Of a stretch of DNA of 64,000 bases, positions 15,558 through 47,471 are shown piece after piece. The notes below the pieces were generated by a model that ran no database searches, was not told where the DNA came from, and worked only from the letters and a program-made list of their open reading frames with translations. The stretch covers positions 2,568,501 through 2,632,500 of the forward strand of contig JAOTOL010001634.1 of the NCBI GenBank assembly GCA_034440575.1, read 5' to 3'. The stretch is from Imbricaverruca yamaguchii. Lineage: Eukaryota; Arthropoda; Thecostraca; Neoverrucidae. Within the stretch, counting starts at the first letter, position 1. Each line of letters opens with the position of its first letter. The position numbers and the translations under genes are program-made.

Positions 15558-15707
15558 ATGGAGTTCTCGGCGCCAGTACGCTGTGGCCTGACGGCCGTGT
15601 CGCCGGACGGCGCGCACCTGGCCACCACGCTCGGCGTCAGACTCACCGTGTTCGGCGTCGCCACGCAGCAGGAGGAGGCCGCGTTCATCTGTCTGGACGA
15701 CCCGCAG
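15558..15707 (+). CDS. WRAP73: WRAP73 exon 1
   Basis: Fifty codons, [18 protein letters not shown]... to CLDDPQ. They align with the human start ([20 protein letters not shown]...) including SPDG and the CLDxxQ end. Donor CCGCAG|GTCAGC, phase 0. The ATG is chosen because the second residues (xFS) and the length match the family, and the repeat array stops just upstream. Confidence 0.9.

Positions 15708-47471: not shown

Follow-up and report, generated by a model that had tools for sequence, protein, structure and literature searches.

The WRAP73 Gene and Its Relatives

The window, that is, the whole stretch of DNA that was analyzed, comprises 64,000 nucleotides of the barnacle Imbricaverruca yamaguchii (contig JAOTOL010001634.1), is free of any N, and carries an intact gene of nine exons on its plus strand, with all introns GT-AG and an uninterrupted ORF. 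Exon 1 extends from the ATG at 15558 to 15707 and is followed by exon 2 (20116–20298), exon 3 (22257–22430), exon 4 (36747–36968), exon 5 (38425–38596), exon 6 (39965–40088), exon 7 (40680–40768), exon 8 (45368–45489), and exon 9 (47346–47471), which includes the stop codon. Their boundaries were initially drawn by eye with the human WRAP73 protein as a guide and were then verified by alignment to the relatives found. Exons 1 to 5 and exon 7 are based on the spliced ORF together with that alignment, exon 6 on the spliced ORF and the junction test described below (where it proved to be without a junction array), and exon 9 on the spliced ORF, while the donor of exon 8 was set by the alignment. 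With this donor at 45489 the predicted protein has 453 aa; an alternative donor at 45555, giving a 475-aa version, was dropped because the 22 residues it adds at the end of exon 8 have no counterpart in the relatives.

A protein database search, in which the 7999 candidates with the most shared words were scored, returned 18 matches. With the 475-aa version as query, the closest named relative among these came from the barnacle Amphibalanus amphitrite, whose WRAP73 is 58% identical over 89%; a WRAP73-like protein from the lobster Homarus americanus is 40% identical over 98%, and two further proteins among the matches were 64 and 63% identical. The annotated A. amphitrite protein diverges from that of the window at the N-terminus. 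Exons 2 to 7 show no insertion when aligned against the proteins of four relatives (P0001–P0004), and a WD40 domain scores above the Pfam cut-off. The gene looks like WRAP73 in that its product resembles proteins of that name over nearly their full length, and the nine-exon WRAP73 gene proposed in an earlier, sequence-only reading of this DNA is borne out by the GT-AG introns, the open ORF, and the alignment.

Tandem Arrays at the Splice Junctions

Arrays were listed with Tandem Repeats Finder (TRF), and each splice junction, taken as 20 nt of exon plus 20 nt of intron, was compared with the adjoining 1 kb of intron and with 300 mononucleotide shuffles. Six of the 16 junctions, namely the acceptors of exons 2, 3, and 4 and the donors of exons 2, 3, and 7, scored above all 300 shuffles, and in all six the match crosses the exon edge. 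At the other 10, the best intron match did not surpass every shuffle. Scores were 80 for the exon 2 and exon 3 acceptors, 69 for the exon 2 donor, 44 for the exon 4 acceptor, and 38 for the exon 7 donor; the exon 3 donor was the weakest positive, with 26 against a shuffle maximum of 24. The exon 5 acceptor was considered as a seventh junction of this kind and rejected, since it shares a 10-mer but its score is equalled or exceeded by 35 of 300 shuffles.

These repeats, all described on the plus strand, amount to five clear arrays, each found by both TRF and the junction test, and one degenerate repeat. The exon 2 acceptor lies in a 90-bp array (19457–20172) made up of six decoy copies and the functional copy, with 40-bp sub-units inside. 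The exon 2 donor lies in a 72-bp array (20254–21507, TRF rows merged) in which 16 units were counted, including the functional one, and where substitutions and indels are combined among the units in mosaic fashion. The functional donor (20299–20306) reads GTATGAGT and differs from the decoys by a 2-bp insertion, GTGAGT being present in 13 of the remaining 15 units; the decoys are presumably nearer to the usual donor consensus than the functional site itself. The exon 3 acceptor falls in a 48-bp array (21733–22287) that holds 10 decoy acceptors, the exon 4 acceptor in a 44-bp array of 2.6 copies (36643–36755), and the exon 7 donor in a degenerate array of 55–61 bp (40757–41181), each unit of which contains 12 nt of exon. 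At the exon 3 donor there is the degenerate repeat (22424–22580), a 12-mer present three times at spacings of 59 and 57 bp. As judged by eye from the unit listings, many but not all units retain the AG/GT splice signals. A test with 24-mers, allowing up to four mismatches, found copies at only four of the 16 junctions; it misses the exon 2 donor, whose functional copy carries the 2-bp insertion, as well as the exon 3 donor, whose repeat is degenerate.

When one copy each from ten arrays or repeats was compared, only two of 45 pairs reached a level matched by three or fewer of 300 shuffles, and the repeat units appear to be essentially unrelated to each other, or nearly so. This agrees with the sequence-only reading, which had each array arising with its own boundary rather than from one spreading family, and which had given unit lengths of 90, 72, 48, 44, about 58, and about 60 bp; those found are 90, 72, 48, 44, 57–59 (exon 3 donor), and 55–61 bp. 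Its view that six junctions lie in separate arrays holds for the five clear ones, with the exon 3 donor having only the thrice-repeated 12-mer. It had also described arrays abutting exons 1, 5, and 8. This is accurate for exon 1, where a 63-bp array (14699–15552) ends 6 bp before the start codon, and for exon 8, where a 41-bp array (44489–45359) ends 9 bp before the exon. For exon 5 the word is a loose one: a 33/23-bp array (38008–38380), examined by TRF and the junction test, ends 45 bp before the exon without including its edge, and a 6-bp TGTCTC array (38614–38878) begins 18 bp past it. TRF also listed a 42-bp array of about 48 copies in intron 7 (42096–44128), whose nearest exon is 1.2 kb off; these arrays, too, are given on the plus strand.

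Other Repeats and Elements in the Window

Intron 3 of WRAP73 contains, on the minus strand, an ORF for a glycine-rich, secreted-type peptide (26887–27219), whose coding repeats form one array, and a second, repeat-coded ORF for a glycine-rich peptide (34258–34632). A short dispersed element at 35161–35320, which by eye looks tRNA-derived, has copies at 28362, 29452, 44199, and 56488 that are 78–87% alike. Another, at 18050–18240, resembles by eye a tRNA-derived SINE and has minus-strand copies at 10253–10427 and 8994–9150 that are about 89–90% identical. Beyond the gene, a 60-bp array of 12 copies (48537–49264) lies upstream, by some 4 kb, of an ORF (53427–54548) that contains a reverse transcriptase domain, and a second, stronger reverse transcriptase match occurs at 57797–58498 (Pfam RVT_1, E = 3.5e-34). 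At its left end, the window contains a transposase fragment (423–851; Pfam DDE_Tnp_1_7).

Array Placement and Chance

Considered base by base, the junctions of this gene are duplicated no more often than its repeat content would lead one to expect. Random 40-mers from the gene passed the junction test in 103 of 400 cases, 95 of those 103 being in or at an array, and the six positives among 16 junctions do not stand out against them (P = 0.22) or against GC-matched 40-mers (95 of 244; P = 0.64). The 24-mer background in the gene was likewise high, with copies for 1107 of 4556 words, or for 961 of 2797 words of GC 0.5–0.8 after low-complexity words were removed. When 14 arrays were placed randomly, the five exon edges observed inside arrays compared with a mean of 4.35 (P = 0.45), and the five arrays observed with at least one edge compared with 2.72 expected (P = 0.07). 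For nine non-coding arrays with units of at least 20 bp, the corresponding P values were 0.29 and 0.0175, and for 12 non-coding arrays 0.40 and 0.046. The two arrays coding for the glycine-rich ORF repeats belong to the set of 14 and are absent from the smaller sets; three AT/ATAG microsatellites (25289, 31355, and 34927), other short TRF rows, and the exon 3 donor repeat were excluded from the placements. The lack of a junction excess in base coverage is what would be expected if arrays were common in the gene and not targeted to junctions.

A different picture emerges from the position of the arrays and the placement of their units. Of the 14 arrays, nine are no more than 50 bp away from an exon, against a mean of 3.17 in 4000 placements, none of which reached nine; the smaller sets gave eight of nine and nine of 12, again with none of 4000 placements as high. 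With up to 60 bp of any one exon allowed per array, five arrays hold an edge where 0.55 would be expected, although the 50-bp and 60-bp limits were chosen after the arrays had been seen and these figures therefore flatter the result. When one unit per array was taken as a seed, five of 14 seeds contained an edge, as compared with 0.35 expected under uniform placement (five reached in none of 20,000) and with 0.96 (P = 0.00125) once local GC was matched to within 0.05. For 12 of the 14 seeds the local GC exceeds 0.5, the mean of the gene being 0.49. If the nine near-exon arrays are restricted to 100 bp of exons, the P value for five or more edges is 0.02–0.06, and it falls to 0.01–0.02 at 150 bp, 0.005–0.009 at 200 bp, 0.002 at 300 bp, and below 0.001 at 500 bp; over seed limits of 500–100 bp around exons, the unit-level excess has a P of 0.0003–0.058.

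Array placement beside exons thus does exceed chance, with cut-offs that are post hoc. The sequence-only reading had named as its refutation an overlap of arrays and junctions no higher than chance, and such is the outcome per base in this gene; for array position and unit placement it is not, both being in excess beside exons. Random placement hardly explains the unit-level excess, which leaves room for some pull towards exon edges. If the arrays were born into short introns that grew later, for example by transposons, little excess would be left to explain.

Decoy Splice Sites and the Reading Frame

In most of the arrays, use of a decoy would disrupt the protein. A stop codon would follow from any of the six exon 2 acceptor decoys, from all 14 GTGAGT sites of the exon 2 donor array (13 at the edge position of a unit and one inside a unit; the search took GTGAGT sites only, so that two units without the motif fell outside), from both exon 4 acceptor decoys, and from all four exon 7 donor decoys that fit a search pattern by which degenerate units were missed. 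None of the 10 decoys at the exon 3 acceptor breaks the frame or introduces a stop. Frame-preserving selection, considered as an explanation, is accordingly unsupported in every clear array except that of exon 3, the only one to keep the frame, and since the tested decoys of the other four would give stops, the decoys look like passengers. Variable sites were counted in full-length decoy units (10 of 16 at the exon 2 donor, nine of 11 at the exon 3 acceptor, and three of seven at the exon 2 acceptor), leaving out functional copies and irregular units. They number 5 of 119 in the exon-derived part and 8 of 91 in the intron-derived part (P = 0.25), and there is no clear constraint on the exon parts. 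Three of the five variable exon-derived sites are silent, by eye, with respect to the exon frame, a number too small to test.

Proposed Origin of the Arrays

The reading that we favor, with a probability of roughly 0.6, is that these are minisatellites of the kind called "mirages" in amphioxus, which would be born beside exons in the ordinary way and tolerated as long as the copy joined to the exon stays usable. Short tandem duplications would arise in the GC-rich DNA around exons by slippage or unequal exchange, and some of them would take in an exon edge together with its splice site. Such a duplication could be tolerated because a complete exon remains present, and exon definition would choose the copy joined to the exon body, favoring the shortest exon. 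The arrays would later expand and homogenize, while duplications extending deep into an exon would be purged. In support of this reading, the copy joined to the exon body is the last in the acceptor arrays and the first in the donor arrays, the functional copies are intact, and the spliced ORF is collinear with the relatives. Only splicing at the exon-joined copies would keep the protein intact; exon 3 is the exception, its decoys being such as would lengthen the protein in frame. The mosaic variants among the exon 2 donor units would fit exchange between units. The five wrap points examined gave no significant sign of homology at the breakpoints (in the best case, 69 of 1000 shuffles did as well), which leaves the slippage step without direct support.

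A mutational process specific to exon edges, such as slippage or repair at R-loops or at structures linked to transcription or splicing, could instead have seeded the arrays at the junctions. The excess of edges at the unit level over uniform and GC-matched placement, the way in which the arrays hug exons, and the fact that donors and acceptors are both hit all speak for such a process, but duplicated junctions are not in excess by the per-base control, the unit-level excess shrinks to P = 0.02–0.06 within 100 bp of exons, which would apply if introns were then short, and a single gene was examined; we regard it as rather unlikely. A bolder proposal, and a decidedly doubtful one, is that mutation in barnacle-type genomes is biased towards seeding minisatellites at the edges of exons in many genes, producing fast-changing junction arrays, and that the exon 3 array forms an in-frame acceptor ladder able to lengthen WRAP73 by steps of about 16 residues.

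The sequence-only reading had also raised selection for decoy sites, which finds no support here. Selection could conceivably retain decoys as a means of tuning how WRAP73 is spliced or, in the case of exon 3, of producing longer in-frame isoforms with repeats of about 16 residues, and the 10 open, in-frame acceptors there and the few silent sites would be in keeping with this. Against it stand the stops at the exon 2 acceptor, exon 2 donor, exon 4, and exon 7 arrays, the variability of the exon-derived parts, which is not significantly lower than that of the intron-derived parts, and the proteins of relatives P0001, P0002, and P0003, which are without any such insertion, making this explanation very unlikely. 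Most improbable of all would be an assembly artefact in which repeats were misjoined or over-expanded. A precedent exists in the amphioxus genome draft, where the BflGb6 mirage was aberrantly assembled (PMC3087553); here, however, the units differ by substitutions and indels in a mosaic pattern, the exons are intact, and no N interrupts the window. As far as sequence can show, the structures are real.

Comparison with Known Systems

Several systems already described resemble the barnacle arrays in part. In human genes of segmental duplications, internal tandem repeats (minisatellites) lie at exon–intron boundaries, where they reportedly give rise to new introns or isoforms in recent paralogues (PMC2812944). 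The location of the minisatellites is thus shared, whereas no new intron is seen in barnacle WRAP73. The Rogers model of intron gain invokes the tandem duplication of an AG/GT-bearing segment (cited in PMC3087553), and a case of intron gain by tandem duplication has been described in potato (PMC4974935). The barnacle duplications also take in splice signals, but no gained intron is apparent, and the relatives (P0001–P0004), compared as proteins only, have no insertion there. In a barnacle Na+/K+ ATPase gene, exon 11 is reported to be tandemly duplicated, this being a whole exon and not a junction array (PMC3793950).

Among the literature matches, no junction array of a barnacle or other crustacean appeared in a title or the start of an abstract, and the word "tandem" does not occur in the available text of two barnacle genome papers (PMC8270832 and PMC8917513). 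Of the papers examined, two on amphioxus (PMC3087553 and PMC3902484) use the term "mirage" for such repeats. The barnacle arrays can be grouped with this known kind, in a lineage for which the literature matches gave no earlier report. Lancelets are highly polymorphic, and high polymorphism may be one trait that they share with a barnacle. In Balanus improvisus, diversity at fourfold sites is reported to be about 20% (PMC8270832).

The closest parallel is with the amphioxus mirages themselves, which are tandem repeats spanning exon–intron boundaries in Adh3 and in the globin genes BflGb6 and BflGb9 (PMC3087553), and which have been reported in TnC and PGBD5 as well (PMC3902484). Their existence answers the suggestion of the sequence-only reading that no described process makes such arrays, even though the globin paper leaves the underlying mechanism unclear. 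For amphioxus, RT-PCR suggests regular splicing, and length instability has been reported (PMC3087553). In barnacle WRAP73, the intact ORF and the alignment to relatives are no more than consistent with undisturbed splicing. With 13 GTGAGT decoy donors nearby in one array and 10 near-identical acceptors in another, the gene could serve as a natural experiment on how such sites are passed over by the spliceosome. The two systems differ in that the arrays described here come from a barnacle, are known from the sequence of one haplotype, and involve five or six junctions of a single gene. The features in common are as follows: the repeat unit spans the exon–intron boundary, here at six of 16 junctions, one of them weak; donor and acceptor sides are both duplicated, here three of each; many units keep AG/GT while the normal coding sequence is retained; and units range from tens of bp to about 160 bp. 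Five or six arrays of this kind in a gene of a non-chordate would suggest that they have originated independently in distant animals.
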